In this document: positions 9,274 through 16,105 of the stretch, piece by piece | Layout of the letters: every line of letters starts with the position of its first letter | Numbering within the stretch: the stretch's first letter is position 1 | IMG/VR virus record: IMGVR_UViG_3300027976_000053 | Span: 1 to 51,877 of that record | Source of the DNA: a virus | Strand: one strand, 5' to 3' | Length of the DNA: 51,877 bases | Made by a program: the position numbers and the translations under genes | Notes under the pieces: model-generated | What the model was told of the DNA's origin: nothing | Seen by the model: the letters and a program-made list of their open reading frames with translations, nothing else | The model's database searches: none

Positions 9274-10710
9274 ATGGCAAAAATAAATAAAGATACATTA
9301 GAATACCTTGGGAATGATTATCAATATAGGTTGATAGCTCAAATATTATCGGATTCAAAATTTGGTAACTCTATAATTGATATTGTAGACCCAAATTATT
9401 TTCAAGAACCATATTTAAGGGTTGTTGCCGCTATAATAAAAGAAGCTAAGGAAAAAGATGATATCATTCCAGACATTGGTGGTCTTAGAATTCGTATTCT
9501 TGATGATGTGTCAAATGACATGCAACAAAAGTATGCTATTAGAGAATTAGAGAAGATAAGTCAAGCTAGTTTACAAGATACTTTCAAAGTTCAAGATATT
9601 GCTATGAAATTTTGTAAGCAACAAGAATTAAAAAAATCTATCAAAGAAATCCAAAGTATTATTGATAAGGGTGATATTAATGACTATGATGAATGTGAAG
9701 CTATTTTAAAGAAAGCACTTGAATACGGCCACGTAAAAGACGAGGGTATGGATATCTTTGATAATATCAAAGATGTGTTACGTGAAGATTTTAGAAACCC
9801 AATTAGAACAGGTATTAATGGTTTAGATGAATACATGGATGGTGGTTTATCTAAAGGTGAGTTAGCTGTTATCTTAGCACCTTTTGGTACTGGTAAAACC
9901 ACGATGATAACCAAAATAGCTAACACAGCTATGAACGATGGTTATAAAGTACTTCAAATATTTTTCGAAGATAACCCAAAAGTTATTCAACGAAAACACT
10001 TGGCTTGTTGGAGTGGTATTGAATTGAATTCTTTATCGCAACACCAAGCAGAAGTTTTCGAGTTATGTCAAGAAAAAATGTCATTACCTAAAGAAGGTAA
10101 AGGTATTCTTAAGCTTAAAAAATTCCCAAGTGATGGTACTACAATACCAATGATTCGACAATATATTAGAAAACTAATAGCACAAGGTTTTAAACCAGAT
10201 ATTGTTTTATTAGATTATATTGATTGTGTACAACCATCAAAAACTTTTGCTGATGCAAACATTGGTGAAGGAAGTGTTATGAGACAATTTGAATCGATGT
10301 TGGATGAGCTGGATATGGCTGGTTGGACTGCGATTCAAGGTAATAGAAGTTCGATAGGTGCAGCGGTTGTTGAAGCCAATCAAATTGGAGGTTCTATTAA
10401 AAAGGGTCAAATTGGCCACTTTATTGTTTCAATAGCAAAAACGTTAGACCAAAAAGAAGATGGAACCGCTACCATGGCAATTCTTAAATCAAGATTTGGT
10501 AAAGATGGGGTTATTTTTGAAGATATAACTTTTGATAACGCTAAAATACAAATAGATATGGGTCAAAGTAGAGGTCCTAGAACAAGAGGTGAATTTAAAC
10601 AAGACATTAAAGAATCAAATCAAGCAAGAGTTAATTCGGTTCTAGATGCAATGAAAAATAGAAAAGAAACTTTAATTTCCGAAGTTCCTAAAGAAACTGA
10701 TAATCTCTAA
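9274..10710 (+). CDS. 41: Replicative DNA helicase, gp41/DnaB-like
   Basis: This 478-residue protein is a RecA-fold hexameric replicative helicase of the DnaB/gp41 family, which unwinds DNA ahead of the fork and works with the primase. An N-terminal helical domain (residues 1-140) is followed by the motor domain: [11 protein letters not shown] leads into the Walker A motif APFGTGKTT at residues 202-210, and DIVLLDYID is the Walker B segment. The length equals that of T4 gp41 (475). The partner primase is encoded far downstream, at 44562. The C-terminal 40 residues are charged and probably flexible. Confidence 0.92.
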
Positions 10711-11699: not shown

Positions 11700-13844
11700 A
11701 TGAAAATAACGAAAAGAAACGGTAGTAAAATTGATTTCAACCCAAATAAAATTTTAACTAGAATAAAAAAACAATCCGAAGGGTTAAAAGTAAATGCGGA
11801 TGAGGTGTTCATTAAAGTAACACAAGGTATAGCTGATGAAATGACAACGAATGAATTAGATGATTTGATTTCAGTGGTTTCCGAATCGTTGGCGATGAAT
11901 CATCCAGATTATTCAAAATTAGCTGCGAATATATCAATTTCAAAACTTCATAAAGAAACAGAGGATTCTTTCATGAAAGCAACTAAAAAATTATACAACG
12001 CTGGGTTGTTAAACAATTTTTATTATAATAAGGTAAAAGAGAATATTGAATTGATTGAATCAGTGATTAATTATAAGAGAGATTTTCATTTTGATTATTT
12101 TGGTTGGTCTTCATTGAAAAATATTTACTTGTTAAAACTAAAAGATGGTGTTATAATTGAAAGACCTCAACATATGTATGTTAGGGTCGCGCTTATGGTG
12201 ACAAATACACCAGAAGATTTTATTGAAAAATACAATGATTTGAGTTTCCAGAGAGAAAGCCCAGCAACACCACTTAAAATGAATGTTGGGACAAATATAG
12301 GTCAAATCGCTTCATGTAATTTATCCATAGTTACCGATGATTCAACAGAAGGGTTACTAGATATTTTAGGAAGAATAGCTATTTCTTCATCAAAGGCTGA
12401 GGGTATTGGATTAGCTGTATCTAATATTCGTTCAAAAGAAAATAACGTAGGGAATTCAGATGGTAAAGCTGGTGGCGTTTTAAAATATCTTAAGGTTGTT
12501 AACGAAACACTTAGATTTTGGAACCAACGAGGTAAAAGACCAGGTTCAGCCGCTGTCTACATCGAACCATGGCACAAAGATATTTTTGATGTCCTAGATA
12601 TGAGGAAAAAAACAGGTGATGAAACACTTAGAGCTCGTGATTTATTTTCAGCTCTTTGGATTTCTGATAATTTCATGAAAGCTGTAGAAACGAATGGTGA
12701 TTGGTATCTATTTTGCCCTCACGACATCAAATCAGCTGGTTTAAAGCCTTTTTACGAGATTTATGGTGCTGAGTTCGAAAAAGAATATAATTTGGCCGTA
12801 GAAATGGGTTTAGGGGTTAAAATAAAAGCACATGACTTGTGGATAAAAATTATTGAATCACAAATTGAAACAGGTATGCCTTACATGTGTTTTAAGGACC
12901 ACAGTAATAGTAAATCAAACCAAAAAAACATGGGTATGATTCATTCTAGTAATTTGTGTGCTGAAATTATGGAAGTAACTGATTATGAAACTACTGCGAT
13001 ATGTACTCTTACTAGTATTCCAGTTCAAAAATTTGTAATAGATAAAAAATATAGTTTCTTTGAGTTAGGTAGGGTAACCCGTTCAATAACAAAGTCATTA
13101 AATATTGCTATTGAAATTAACGATTACTCAACACCAGAAGGTAGGAAAGGTGGGTTAGAGCAAAGAGCTTTAGGAATAGGCATTCAAGGTTTGGCTGATG
13201 TGTTTGCTATGTTAAGACTTCCATTTGTTTCAGAAGAAGCTAGAACTCTTAACAGAAATATTTTTGAGACGATATATTATAATGCTTTAAGACAGTCATG
13301 TGATTTGGCTAAAGAATCTGGTGAAACATATTCTGGTTATGAAGGTTCTCCTATATCTCAAGGTATCTTCCAGTGGGAAATGTGGGGGATAACAGAAGAT
13401 AAGTTATCTGGTATGTATGATTGGAATGAATTACGAGAAGATATATTAAAATATGGTGTTAGAAATTCATTAACAACATGTTGTCCCCCAACAGCGAGTT
13501 GTCAAGTTATTGACACTAGGATTCACACTGAAAATGGTGTGAAATCATTTAAAGATATGCTAAAAGAAAATGATATTAATTGGGAATCATTAGAGGGTAC
13601 TAACATACAACAATGGATAACCCTAAAACCATTTAATGTAAAAACAACTGATGGTTATGAAGAAGTTAATAAGATAAAATATAATGGATATTCTACAGTA
13701 TATCAAATTGAAATGGAAGATGGTTCTATTTTTGAAGCAACATCAAACCATAAATTCAAAGTAAAAAGAAATGATAAAGAAATATGGGTTGAGGTTAGTG
13801 ATTTAACCACCACGGACGATATATTAAATATTTTTGAAAAATAG
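11700..13844 (+). CDS. nrdA: Ribonucleotide reductase alpha subunit, N-terminal fragment fused to N-half of a split intein
   Basis: Residues 1-600 are the N-terminal four fifths of NrdA: an ATP-cone regulatory domain (about 1-90), then the catalytic barrel with C206 (ASCNL), the N418/C420/E422 triad (NLCAEI) and C435 (AICTL), which correspond to E. coli C225, N437/C439/E441 and C462. At residue 601 the extein stops after PPTAS and an intein begins with Cys (CQVIDTRIHTENG, block A), continues through block B (ATSNHKFKV) and ends at a stop codon after 114 intein residues. The remaining C-terminal 167 NrdA residues are encoded about 1.1 kb downstream behind the matching C-intein. Trans-splicing would give a normal 767-residue NrdA. 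This is not a frameshift: both pieces have proper intein boundaries. Confidence 0.95.
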   Translation: MKITKRNGSKIDFNPNKILTRIKKQSEGLKVNADEVFIKVTQGIADEMTTNELDDLISVVSESLAMNHPDYSKLAANISISKLHKETEDSFMKATKKLYNAGLLNNFYYNKVKENIELIESVINYKRDFHFDYFGWSSLKNIYLLKLKDGVIIERPQHMYVRVALMVTNTPEDFIEKYNDLSFQRESPATPLKMNVGTNIGQIASCNLSIVTDDSTEGLLDILGRIAISSSKAEGIGLAVSNIRSKENNVGNSDGKAGGVLKYLKVVNETLRFWNQRGKRPGSAAVYIEPWHKDIFDVLDMRKKTGDETLRARDLFSALWISDNFMKAVETNGDWYLFCPHDIKSAGLKPFYEIYGAEFEKEYNLAVEMGLGVKIKAHDLWIKIIESQIETGMPYMCFKDHSNSKSNQKNMGMIHSSNLCAEIMEVTDYETTAICTLTSIPVQKFVIDKKYSFFELGRVTRSITKSLNIAIEINDYSTPEGRKGGLEQRALGIGIQGLADVFAMLRLPFVSEEARTLNRNIFETIYYNALRQSCDLAKESGETYSGYEGSPISQGIFQWEMWGITEDKLSGMYDWNELREDILKYGVRNSLTTCCPPTASCQVIDTRIHTENGVKSFKDMLKENDINWESLEGTNIQQWITLKPFNVKTTDGYEEVNKIKYNGYSTVYQIEMEDGSIFEATSNHKFKVKRNDKEIWVEVSDLTTTDDILNIFEK
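13500..13841 (+). other. Split intein, N-terminal half (IntN, 114 aa)
   Basis: The intein starts at Cys codon 13500-13502, directly after PPTAS of NrdA. Block A (C-x2-IDTRIHTENG) and block B (T-x2-H in ATSNHKF) are both present. There is no endonuclease domain; the coding sequence stops after the Hint N-half, as in naturally split inteins. Its length is close to that of known IntN pieces (about 100 residues). Confidence 0.92.
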
Positions 13845-13853
13845 TTGGTGGTT
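13805..13853 (+). other. Inverted repeat around the IntN stop codon
   Basis: AACCACCA (13805-13812) is perfectly complementary to TGGTGGTT (13846-13853), with the stop codon of the NrdA N-fragment in the loop. There is no T-run behind it, so it is not a classic terminator. The right arm could also pair in part (TGGTG with CACCA at 13915-13919), extending the downstream hairpin, so the two structures may compete. Confidence 0.45.
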
Positions 13854-13857
13854 TATC

Positions 13858-13912
13858 GGTTTGGTTGGTATTTATAGCTAAAGAAAATTATGAAAAATTT
13901 ACCAACCAAACC
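13858..13912 (+). promoter_or_regulatory. Translation-blocking hairpin over the endonuclease start, with an embedded late-like promoter box
   Basis: GGTTTGGTTGGTA (13858-13870) and TACCAACCAAACC (13900-13912) are a perfect 13-bp inverted repeat. The 29-base loop holds the ATG of the homing endonuclease (13890). A TATTTATA box (13869-13876) overlaps the end of the 5' arm and lies 13 bases before the ATG. A transcript starting from that box would lack the 5' arm and could not form the hairpin, while read-through nrd mRNA would. This is the arrangement known for T4 intron endonuclease I-TevI. The repeat is directly seen; the regulatory role is inferred. Confidence 0.6.
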
Positions 13913-14951
13913 ATCACCATTCAAAATTGAGTATTGGTTAAAAAAAGGTTTTAGTAACGATGAATCTATTGAAAAAGTCAGGATACATAGGTTAAAATGT
14001 ATTAGAACTTTAGAGTCATTTATTTATAACCATGGAGAGATAAACGGGTTATTAAAATTTAAAGAATTTTGTGATAAAAGTAAACATACGTTAGAAAGTT
14101 TTATGAAAAAATATGGTAAGGAAGATGGTAAATTAAAGTGGGATGCTTATTTAAAAACTAAAGATTCGAATAGTGAAAAATGGGCCTTAAAGAAATCAAA
14201 TGGTGATGTTTATAAAGCTAATGAAATTTTAAAAGAACGTAAAAAAAATGTTATTGTGACGTTAGATAAATTAATAATAAAATATAATGATATTGAATTA
14301 GCTAAAGAAAAATTAAAAGATATAAATAAAAGAAAAGATAGTTCATCTCTAAAATATTTTATAAAAAAAACAAACGGGGATTTAAAATTAGCTACTATAT
14401 TATATAAAGAACGCTCATTAAAAAAAGATTGTATGAGTATTAATTTTTTCCTTAAAAAGACAAACGGGGATTTAAAATTAGCTAAAGACTTACAAGTTAG
14501 TGAGTTAAACAGAAGAAATATTAGTTTTTGTATAGCATCTAAAGAATCTTTAGTTTATTTTATACCACTATATAAATATTTACGTAAAAATGGTTTTAAG
14601 CGAAGTGACATATTTTTAGGTGTTAATGGTTCATATGAATATAAGTTACACGATGTTGATAAAAATATAACGTTCTCTTATGATTTTACAGTCCCATCAT
14701 TAGGTTTAATTATCGAATATCATGGTGAAAAATTTCATCCAAATATCAAAAAATATGGTGTTAATAAATTAAGGGAAAATAGATGGGGTAAACACTTTAG
14801 ATTAGATTTAGATAAAAGCATCTTAAAAGACAAAACTAAAAAAGAATTAGCTATAACAAATAACTTTGAATATATTGAGTTATGGTCATCTGATTCAGAA
14901 GAAATAAATAAAGAGAAAATAATTAAATTTTTAAAAATAAATAAGTTATGA
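13890..14951 (+). CDS. Free-standing homing endonuclease, Vsr/EDxHD-like, inside split nrdA
   Basis: This 353-residue protein lies between the two intein-bearing halves of nrdA. Residues 1-205 are a chain of short repeated helical units (YWLKKGFSNDE, ESFMKKYGKEDG, and three copies around KKxNGDxxxA near 101, 160 and 190) that look like DNA-binding modules of homing endonucleases. Residues about 240-345 look like a Vsr-type PD-(D/E)XK fold: E250, D265 in YDFTVPS, IIEYHG with E276 and H278, FHP with H283, later D306/D308, K313 and a FEYIELW strand. This matches the EDxHD family described from fractured phage genes carrying split inteins. It probably cuts an intein-less or unfractured nrdA near the insertion site and spreads the cassette. 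The exact assignment of catalytic residues is tentative. The TGA stop overlaps the next ATG (ATGA). Confidence 0.85.
   Translation: MKNLPTKPSPFKIEYWLKKGFSNDESIEKVRIHRLKCIRTLESFIYNHGEINGLLKFKEFCDKSKHTLESFMKKYGKEDGKLKWDAYLKTKDSNSEKWALKKSNGDVYKANEILKERKKNVIVTLDKLIIKYNDIELAKEKLKDINKRKDSSSLKYFIKKTNGDLKLATILYKERSLKKDCMSINFFLKKTNGDLKLAKDLQVSELNRRNISFCIASKESLVYFIPLYKYLRKNGFKRSDIFLGVNGSYEYKLHDVDKNITFSYDFTVPSLGLIIEYHGEKFHPNIKKYGVNKLRENRWGKHFRLDLDKSILKDKTKKELAITNNFEYIELWSSDSEEINKEKIIKFLKINKL
14371..14484 (+). repeat. Internal DNA repeat in the endonuclease gene
   Basis: An identical 24-base sequence encoding the core TNGDLKLA occurs at 14371-14394 and 14461-14484, exactly 90 bases (30 codons) apart, inside the helical-repeat region. 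A diverged third unit (KKSNGDVYKA) lies upstream near 14190. This points to recent unit duplication in the DNA-binding part. Confidence 0.8.
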
Positions 14952-15052
14952 AAATAAAAACTATAATTAAGGGTGATATAAAACCTACTTGGGATATTGA
15001 GGTTCCTAATGTTAATCATTATATCATGGAAAATGGGTGTGTAAGTCATAAT
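14948..15052 (+). other. Split intein, C-terminal half (IntC, 35 aa)
   Basis: It covers codons from the ATG to the Asn at 15050-15052, followed by Ser at 15053. The length of 35 residues equals that of well-known natural IntC pieces. All splice-junction residues are intact (Cys1 on IntN, His-Asn on IntC, Ser+1). Confidence 0.92.
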
Positions 15053-15556
15053 TCAGCTCGTGTTATTGGTTCAAACGAAGCTTTTGAACCGTTCACATCT
15101 AATTTATATGTTAGAAGAGTAACTGGTGGTGAATTTGCTATGGTAAACAAACATTTAGTTAGGGAATTGGAAAACGAGGGGTTATGGAATAGAGAGATGT
15201 TAAATGAATTAATTAAAAACGATGGTAGTGTTCAAAATATTCCATCAATAAGTCAAGAATTAAAAGATATTTTTAAAACAGTTTGGGAAATATCACAAAA
15301 ATCTCTTATTGAAATGTCTGCTGAAAGAGGTCCGTTCATCGACCAATCACAGAGTCTAAATATTTTCTTTCAAACACCAACTGTCGGTAAATTAACAACA
15401 TCACATATGTTGGGGTGGAAATTAGGTTTAAAAACAGGTCAATATTATTTGAGAAGTCAACCAGTTGAAATGAAGTCTAAACACTTGGCTATTGATTTAA
15501 CAACAAAACAAAAATCGATAGATAGTCAATTCGAATGTTTCGGTTGTTCTTCGTAG
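14948..15556 (+). CDS. nrdA: Split intein C-half fused to C-terminal fragment of ribonucleotide reductase alpha subunit
   Basis: The first 35 residues are an intein C-half: block F (TWDIEVPNVNHYIMENG) and block G ending CVSHN, with the penultimate His and terminal Asn needed for cyclisation. Residue 36 is the +1 Ser of the C-extein, and the remaining 167 residues are the end of NrdA: GSNEAFEPFTSN, the radical-transfer tyrosine pair in KTGQYYLR, and the redox-active C-terminal Cys pair CFGC. The gene starts in an ATGA overlap with the endonuclease stop, so its translation is coupled to it. Splicing with the product of 11700-13844 would join PPTAS to SARVIG. Without splicing the enzyme lacks its tyrosine relay and C-terminal thiols. 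Confidence 0.95.
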   Translation: MKIKTIIKGDIKPTWDIEVPNVNHYIMENGCVSHNSARVIGSNEAFEPFTSNLYVRRVTGGEFAMVNKHLVRELENEGLWNREMLNELIKNDGSVQNIPSISQELKDIFKTVWEISQKSLIEMSAERGPFIDQSQSLNIFFQTPTVGKLTTSHMLGWKLGLKTGQYYLRSQPVEMKSKHLAIDLTTKQKSIDSQFECFGCSS

Positions 15557-15599
15557 TCACAACTGAGATTACACCACGTTATAGTATAAGTTAAATATT

Positions 15600-15624
15600 C
15601 AAAGGCCCTAATAGGGCCTTTTTT
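15600..15624 (+). terminator. Rho-independent terminator after nrdA
   Basis: AAAGGCCCTA and TAGGGCCTTT form a near-perfect GC-centred stem with a short loop and a T-run. It closes the DNA-metabolism block 44 bases after the end of nrdA and precedes the tail genes. Confidence 0.88.
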
Positions 15625-15659
15625 ATTTGCGTATTTACTTACAAAAATAGTTTAGTACC

Positions 15660-15668
15660 ATATTTATG
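15660..15668 (+). promoter_or_regulatory. Possible late promoter of the baseplate block
   Basis: ATATTTATG lies 50 bases before the first baseplate gene and just after the nrdA terminator, where a new transcription unit must start. It resembles the TATATTTATA boxes before other structural genes, and no TTG lies at the 19-20 base distance. Confidence 0.4.
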
Positions 15669-15718
15669 TAAAAATAAAGAATATAAAACTTTTATATTCA
15701 AAACTAAAACAGAAAACT

Positions 15719-16105
15719 ATGGCTAATGGTCGTTTTATAAACATAAACTACCCCTTCAAAGATAGTAAACAAGGTTTTTTTATCGATTTAAACGCTGATG
15801 ATAAATCAGCGATAAAAGCTGACCTCATGCATTTAATCCTAACTATTAAAGGTCAAAGATTGTATAACCCAGATTTTGGTACAAATTTAATGAGGTTTAT
15901 TTTTGAACCAAGTGACGGTTTCACATTTGAAAAAATAAAAGAAGAAATAACTACTCAAGTAAAAAAATACTTACCAAACCTAGATATAACAGTTATATCT
16001 GTTGAGCAATCAACGGAAAATGATTATGCTGCGGTTTTAAGACTTGATTATACAATAACAGATGATGTGTTTACGACATCAGATTTCGTAATAATAAACA
16101 TTTAA
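15719..16105 (+). CDS. 25: Baseplate wedge protein, gp25-like
   Basis: This 128-residue protein is a GPW/gp25-family baseplate wedge subunit. The family signature is clear: a first strand region, then LTIKGQRLYNPDFGTNL, FIFEP and a helix followed by the repeated strands at the C-terminus. In T4 the 132-residue gp25 attaches the wedge to the sheath and baseplate core and nucleates sheath assembly. It is directly followed, one base apart, by the gp6/J-like gene, the usual order in contractile-tail phages, and shows that the phage has a contractile tail. Confidence 0.92.
   Translation: MANGRFININYPFKDSKQGFFIDLNADDKSAIKADLMHLILTIKGQRLYNPDFGTNLMRFIFEPSDGFTFEKIKEEITTQVKKYLPNLDITVISVEQSTENDYAAVLRLDYTITDDVFTTSDFVIINI

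Follow-up and report, generated by a model that had tools for sequence, protein, structure and literature searches.

A phage ribonucleotide reductase gene in two pieces, very probably rejoined by a split intein whose halves flank a predicted homing endonuclease gene of the EDxHD type

The nrdA gene of an uncultured virus of bacteria, known from an IMG/VR record of 51,877 bases that we analysed as a whole (hereafter the window), does not encode the ribonucleotide reductase (RNR) protein NrdA in one piece. NrdA is carried in two parts, on the outer two of three consecutive open reading frames (ORFs; 11700-13844, 714 aa; 13890-14951, 353 aa; 14948-15556, 202 aa), behind nrdB. In our opinion the sequence and the predicted folds make it very probable that a split intein rejoins NrdA in trans and that the gene between the intein halves (IntN and IntC) encodes a homing endonuclease of the EDxHD type. 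A preliminary description, made from the letters of this DNA, had NrdA stop after PPTAS and an N-terminal intein half, and resume some 1.1 kb later behind a C-terminal half ending in HN, from Ser+1 on, with nrdB upstream. This anatomy agrees with the sequence to the base and is borne out by the ORFs, the profile matches and, for nrdB, the match to PF00268; from the IntN stop to the IntC start there are 1,103 nt, nearly all of them endonuclease gene.

Together the two NrdA parts make 767 residues (600 + 167). By Pfam and NCBIfam models the first piece contains the ATP cone, the all-alpha domain and the barrel domain, and the third ORF the C-terminus of the barrel. The N-piece carries the cysteine motifs IASC, SSNLCAE and ICTL and the C-piece carries YY and CFGC, and because the motifs are divided between both pieces neither half should work alone. 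All of these motifs, whose catalytic roles we take as given, are present, so the earlier statement that the catalytic residues are intact across the two pieces holds on that assumption. By HMMER alignment the junction corresponds to Ser606/Thr607 of human R1, a loop that presumably binds the phosphates of the substrate.

The intein halves are recognised by two NCBIfam models, each with a single match in the whole record: TIGR01445 (intein_Nterm) at residues 604-686 of the first ORF, with 28.6 bits against a cut-off of 24.5, and TIGR01443 (intein_Cterm) at residues 16-36 of the third ORF, with 22.7 bits against a cut-off of 15.6. The splice residues that the preliminary description had listed can all be read in the sequence: Cys1, T-S-N-H as the T-x2-H of block B, the terminal H-N and Ser+1. 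With the N- and C-profiles on separate ORFs and these residues in place, what the window carries is, as judged from its sequence, a split intein of class 1. As a stand-in for the window's two halves we modelled a contiguous homologue, L028 (relatives are referred to by such locus numbers), whose IntN is 46% identical to that of the window. It is predicted to adopt the Hint fold (predicted local distance difference test score, pLDDT, 92.1), with Z 17.9 to Npu DnaE, 17.4 to gp41-1 and 16.8 to NrdJ-1, the best Z being 19.6.

The protein encoded between the halves, described earlier as an EDxHD-like homing endonuclease, matches phrog_9084 'homing endonuclease' (E 5.6e-7), and the predicted fold bears out the assignment. 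In the AlphaFold2 model (mean pLDDT 76.5, predicted template modelling score 0.41) it is helical up to about residue 233, with an alpha/beta domain at residues 215-353. This domain matches I-Bth0305I (3r3p_A) at Z 9.0 over 94 residues and 2.6 A, and Vsr (1cw0_A) at Z 9.0 over 115 residues and 3.8 A, tied with the putative endonuclease 3hrl. In an alignment of 11 rows, one of them short, E250, D265 and H283 are invariant and D314 is nearly so, and these conserved residues would suit the EDxHD name. By predicted fold, then, the endonuclease is an EDxHD/Vsr-like nuclease. Passages of the literature describe EDxHD enzymes as multi-domain proteins with long targets (PMC3943268), and a large outgroup of EDxHD/Vsr nucleases (PMC12350094).

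A separate observation concerns the N-terminal part of the endonuclease (13890-14534), which is helical, has no Pfam match and contains the repeated motifs HGEINGLLKFKEF and YGKEDGKLKWDAY, with KKTNGDLKLA occurring twice; similar stretches were seen by eye in ORFs of L002 and L129.

Is it perhaps simpler to suppose that the halves belong to a single cis-splicing precursor, either hidden by a sequencing error or produced by readthrough of the stops, by a frameshift or through removal of an RNA intron? The endonuclease gene does share the frame of IntN. Such a precursor would, however, have to pass two in-frame stops behind IntN (TAG 13842 and TAG 13875) and a change of frame, as IntC is not in the frame of IntN. 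No intron family occurs among the nine Rfam matches up to E 5 in 12900-15700, and in seven relatives Rfam gave no match at the gathering score. In five relatives there are just 8-53 nt between the intein halves, a gap too small for an intron. The layout also recurs. L005 and L006 run from the helicase through gp25 with 100% identical proteins. L007 covers endonuclease, IntC, NrdA-C and gp25 only, at 99-100% identity; these three may not be independent samples. Different phages repeat it as well: L008 and L013 have an endonuclease ORF (IntN 65% and 51% identical, respectively), L010 has an endonuclease remnant (IntN 77% identical), and the contig of L009 (76%) ends inside the endonuclease. A sequencing error at 13842-13844, considered in the preliminary description, does not account for the break, since no single error restores one ORF. 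The two stops, the frame change and the repetition of the layout in other contigs rule out sequencing error and readthrough, and to a single cis-splicing precursor in any form we assign almost no probability.

We estimated ratios of nonsynonymous to synonymous substitution (dN/dS), which are rough, as some pairs come close to saturation at synonymous sites: 0.10-0.14 for NrdA_N (3 pairs), 0.07-0.16 for NrdA_C (10 pairs), 0.11-0.38 for IntN (15 pairs), 0.04-0.25 for IntC (10 pairs) and 0.16-0.24 for the endonuclease (3 pairs). By these estimates every part, that is IntN, IntC, the endonuclease and both parts of NrdA, is under purifying selection in the pairs tested. This bears on the idea that the break has inactivated nrdA and that the phage relies on its host or on another supply of deoxyribonucleoside triphosphates (dNTPs). 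A similar nrdA, that of Campylobacter phage CPt10, is called a pseudogene in passages of PMC3653736. Yet the CPt10 gene can be read as containing a split intein and a mini-intein, and in the window the motifs and nrdB are intact and the ratios for NrdA remain low on both sides of the break. Purifying selection rules out a decaying gene, and we give this idea next to no weight.

A more serious competitor, although still a very improbable one, is that nothing is spliced at all: the two polypeptides would assemble non-covalently and the intein halves would be relics. For RNR there is said to be a precedent, the NrdA of Aeromonas phage Aeh1 (Friedrich 2007), which reportedly is made as two polypeptides, its gene being split by a homing endonuclease gene, and is active as a non-covalent assembly. 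In the window, however, both intein halves are complete, have all splice residues and, in the pairs tested, are under purifying selection; moreover, two dangling intein halves at the Ser606/Thr607 loop, with its presumed role in substrate binding, would probably be harmful.

We therefore prefer trans-splicing by the split intein, for which the following course can be proposed. Two polypeptides would be made, NrdA 1-600-IntN and IntC-NrdA 601-767, the translation of the second probably being coupled to the endonuclease gene. The intein halves would associate, fold as one Hint domain and splice in trans by an acyl shift at Cys1, transfer to Ser+1 and cyclisation of Asn, giving a seamless class Ia NrdA of 767 residues with NrdB as its partner, and dNTP synthesis would thus depend on protein trans-splicing. 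The endonuclease, for its part, would cut intein-free nrdA at or near the PPTAS^SAR codons, and as the cut is repaired, IntN, endonuclease and IntC would be copied together, as one block, into the competing phage. The splicing, the cleavage site, the translational coupling and the need for the product are what we infer from the anatomy.

Related phages with an unbroken nrdA, proposed for comparison in the preliminary description, do exist. A search with NrdA 1-600 gave at least 598 relatives, the best 80 of which were considered; 84 loci were taken (L079-L157, three records from a phage collection, the window and L009), and 78 were scored after leaving out six without a C-half. In 68 of these 78, a set that includes the window, the NrdA parts are fused without an insert at this codon junction (PPTAS^SAR or equivalent); the other 10 are filled, several of them being copies of one contig. 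L027 and L130 make a close pair. Their nrdA genes agree at 2972 of the first 3000 aligned bases and, over four bins further right, at 460 of 480; between these parts, at PPTAS^SAR, L027 has an insert of 818 nt that L130 lacks. In a tree built from 56 close NrdA proteins, of which 50 are empty and 6 filled, and three outgroup rows, the filled or empty state changes at least five times, and a single clade of the six filled rows is rejected (approximately unbiased test, p-AU 1.0e-7).

The filled sites differ among themselves. Both intein halves were found in 29 of 30 loci examined, at the junction or within about two residues of it where the exteins matched (those of L049 are unmatched beside the intein; the set keeps near-duplicates, for instance L023/L024). 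Six of the 29 pairs are contiguous, those of Campylobacter phages CP220 and CPt10 included, and 23 are split. Among the split ones, 13 have their halves separated by an endonuclease-sized ORF, in two (L027, L038) this ORF is a remnant or is broken, and eight, two of which are near-copies, have none; split halves are thus kept without an endonuclease. L021 and L023, whose nrdA genes are 96-100% identical per 100 nt, differ in that only L021 has the endonuclease block, which means that the endonuclease comes or goes apart from the split intein. The intervening ORFs are of mixed kind: that of L035 matches DUF7487 and MTES_1575 (under the cut-off), and that of Klebsiella phage phiKp_21 has no Pfam match. 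The stop of the ORF overlaps the start of IntC by 4-23 nt in 10 of the 15 rows with an ORF between the halves, and this includes the 90-residue remnant of L027; there is no such overlap in L035, L038 and L039, and no ATG start of IntC was found in L041 and L049. Translation of IntC is probably coupled to that of the endonuclease gene. In L038 (5382-5999) the endonuclease between the halves seems broken, with 34% identity over query residues 149-353 and an ORF of 109 aa only; it appears to be a decaying copy.

That the endonuclease mobilises the whole break, as had been suggested, is borne out indirectly, by the scattered filled alleles, by the insert that distinguishes L027 from L130 and by an element at another site of nrdA that appears to have moved recently (see below). 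For the copy in the window itself no recent move was seen: the scans made contain no near-identical donor or recipient of its element, and only 6 of 10 pairs show a lower synonymous divergence (pS) for IntN than for NrdA_C, so that neither a recent transfer of this copy nor an intein younger than its host gene is supported. Both results weigh against our interpretation, and the following should be set beside them. The tree of NrdA cannot separate gain from loss. Among 48 empty loci the junction does not stand out by the conservation of its DNA, bins 30-120 nt downstream being more conserved. As to the intein, the Pfam model Intein_splicing (PF14890) stays under its cut-off for IntN (22.8 vs 35.8), and IntN finds solved inteins, some of them split, weakly by sequence (best E 0.0023, with a five-row profile). 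The endonuclease of the window has no Pfam match at E 0.01, and its 11 homologues gave three unrelated Pfam families with one member each (E 0.007-0.01). When solved structures were searched with its sequence alone, the single match was a designed ankyrin (E 0.48) and no nuclease was found; the 11-row profile gave zero matches. Hence the endonuclease is placed by fold comparison only, where Z 9 is moderately above the best-Z background of 7-8 stated for the tool and the Foldseek E-values are weak (Vsr first, at E 0.14; 3r3p at E 1.0).

Several relatives carry more than one break. In reading what follows it should be kept in mind that L010, L027 and L129 belong to one contig (IMGVR_UViG_3300023242_000004), L045 to the contig of L013 and L119 to that of L008. 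In L010 and L013 nrdA is in three pieces; the second split intein precedes the cysteine of SSNL^C, and between its halves lies a GIY-YIG ORF (PF22945 above the cut-off in both). Seen from L027 (2249-6591), nrdA has two split inteins, one with the GIY-YIG ORF and the other with the 90-aa endonuclease remnant, and in L129 (1991-4994) the neighbouring helicase is broken by the third of this contig, whose halves enclose a DUF559/MTES_1575 nuclease ORF. The N-halves of the three split inteins of this contig share 25-31 identical residues of 87-90 aligned, and the C-halves 12-17 of 32-34. The split-intein/GIY-YIG element at site 421 in L045 (2204-3803) is 98-100% identical in DNA, per 100 nt, to that of L031, while the flanking nrdA bins are 63-86% identical; given this difference, recent horizontal transfer of the element is probably the simplest reading. 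L031 has in addition a contiguous LAGLIDADG intein at MIS^C, and the helicase of L119 a contiguous LAGLIDADG insert. The helicase of L134 (2097-9243) has such an insert in Walker A, beginning with Ala and ending HN, and a split intein near the helicase end; nrdA follows in three pieces, and none of the split inteins of L134 contains an endonuclease gene.

Named phages are broken in similar ways. In CPt10 (L001, 4299-5669) a split intein with two hypothetical ORFs between its halves occupies the SSNL-type cysteine of nrdA, and the contiguous mini-intein comes after it; CP220 is without the first element, and outside this insert of 1371 nt the two genes are identical at 2613 of 2697 bases. The Klebsiella phages phiKp_21 (L002) and KP13-7 (L163, 2841-5356) have a split intein in nrdA with an ORF between the halves which looks like HNH by eye but matches nothing in Pfam. 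In KP13-7, whose nrdA is in several pieces, another intein C-half lies at an SSNL^C-type site; phiKp_21 lacks it.

A different break was noted in L037 (519-3787) and L039 (3-2662). It falls after VDQ, with an intein-like N-part, a short ORF ending HN-GGGK and a stop, after which NrdA resumes with MKRKGS; ORFs around it look nuclease-like by eye, and there is no Rfam match. As the +1 residue is Gly, it may be an intein, but also an intron that lies next to one, or an element of another kind.

Taken together, these alleles could mean that the window shows a single stage of an ongoing cycle which progressively breaks phage replication genes into separately translated, self-welding pieces, an idea that we advance tentatively, as somewhat short of an even chance. 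An intein with its endonuclease gene would invade nrdA; the endonuclease gene would later shrink or vanish while the split intein stays fixed; and more elements would stack until nrdA needs two trans-splicing events and the helicase another, in one cassette of about 10 kb. The parasite might be held in place partly by the coupling of translation to the endonuclease ORF, which even the 90-aa remnant would retain. The pairs L027/L130, L021/L023, L045/L031 and CPt10/CP220 would be steps of this cycle caught between close relatives.

The coordinates of the locus and its neighbours are collected in Table 1; the gp25-like gene is the same neighbour in L005-L008, L010, L011 and L013, which thus agree in synteny.

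Table 1. Features of the broken nrdA locus and its surroundings in the window
Feature	Position	Strand	Basis
DnaB-type replicative helicase, unbroken in the window	9274..10710	+	Pfam DnaB_C/KaiC
nrdB, ribonucleotide reductase small subunit, 317 aa	10733..11686	+	PF00268, E 1.2e-103
N-extein, NrdA residues 1-600, end PPTAS	11700..13499	+	Pfam/NCBIfam; aligned to human R1 2-606
IntN (putative split intein half), 114 aa, Cys1 to ...NIFEK, stop TAG 13842-13844	13500..13844	+	TIGR01445 above cut-off; homologues
45-nt spacer with second IntN-frame stop, TAG 13875-13877	13845..13889	+	
Predicted free-standing EDxHD/Vsr-like homing endonuclease ORF, 353 aa	13890..14951	+	phrog_9084; predicted fold
Predicted nuclease domain of the endonuclease, residues 215-353	14532..14948	+	3r3p_A and 1cw0_A fold matches; 11-row conservation
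ATGA overlap of endonuclease stop and IntC start codon (4 nt)	14948..14951	+	
IntC (putative split intein half), 35 aa, end ...GCVSHN	14948..15052	+	TIGR01443 above cut-off
C-extein, last 167 NrdA residues from Ser+1, plus stop	15053..15556	+	Pfam/NCBIfam; aligned to human R1
gp25-like baseplate wedge gene	15719..16105	+	PF04965

The copy in the window is worth attention as a clean and well-delimited natural split intein, as its sequence suggests, in a conserved loop of RNR. With matched alleles that are empty, contiguous, endonuclease-bearing or endonuclease-free, the order in which inteins are split and homing events occur becomes testable, and it is this series, together with the multiply broken relatives, that adds interest beyond a known class. 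New split inteins are supplied as well, several of them together in one phage, which therefore must avoid cross-reacting. Finally, the nrdA 'pseudogene' of CPt10 can be re-read as a gene that is probably trans-spliced.

How does the window compare with what is known? The fractured gene, in which a split intein and an EDxHD endonuclease gene interrupt a host gene, was reportedly described by Dassa et al. 2009 (NAR); the definition used here follows citing papers in part. By that definition the window is, on its sequence, a new case of a known arrangement: the gene is broken at the intein site, each half is fused to an intein half, a free-standing endonuclease gene lies between, and most homologous genes scored lack the insert at this junction. 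It differs from those cases in showing a phage context and different sequences, and in the matched alleles of its relatives, which are empty, contiguous, free of the endonuclease or broken more than once. Passages of PMC3653736 credit Dassa et al. 2009 with seven nrdA and two nrdJ genes interrupted by inteins in ocean data, and the NrdA-2 split intein was chosen from the same source according to a part of PMC7090010; the earlier remark that split inteins with an intervening endonuclease gene had been reported is accordingly correct, as far as these texts go, and the class is known. In the open-licence literature, as far as its texts were available, we found no report of a native gene with two split inteins, and we make no claim on what is in print.

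The endonuclease of the window resembles I-Bth0305I (3r3p) and Vsr (1cw0) in the predicted fold of residues 215-353; unlike I-Bth0305I it is not encoded in an intron, and its N-terminal part is helical without a Pfam match. Among named phages, part of PMC3322345 describes the nrdA of Campylobacter phage IBB_35 as interrupted by two inteins. The NrdA intein of CP220 and CPt10 sits at the same NrdA junction as that of the window (tblastn), but it is a contiguous mini-intein without an endonuclease, and CPt10 is also split at another site of nrdA. As in the window, an ORF separates the two halves of a split intein in the nrdA genes of phiKp_21 and KP13-7, although their junction is one residue upstream (PGE^TSS). 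A figure legend in PMC3653736 puts the split of the Aeh1 nrdA down to an intein. Turning to the window again, two polypeptides make up its NrdA, and an endonuclease gene lies between their coding sequences. The same reportedly holds for Aeh1, there without intein halves, whereas the window has an intein half on each side of the break.

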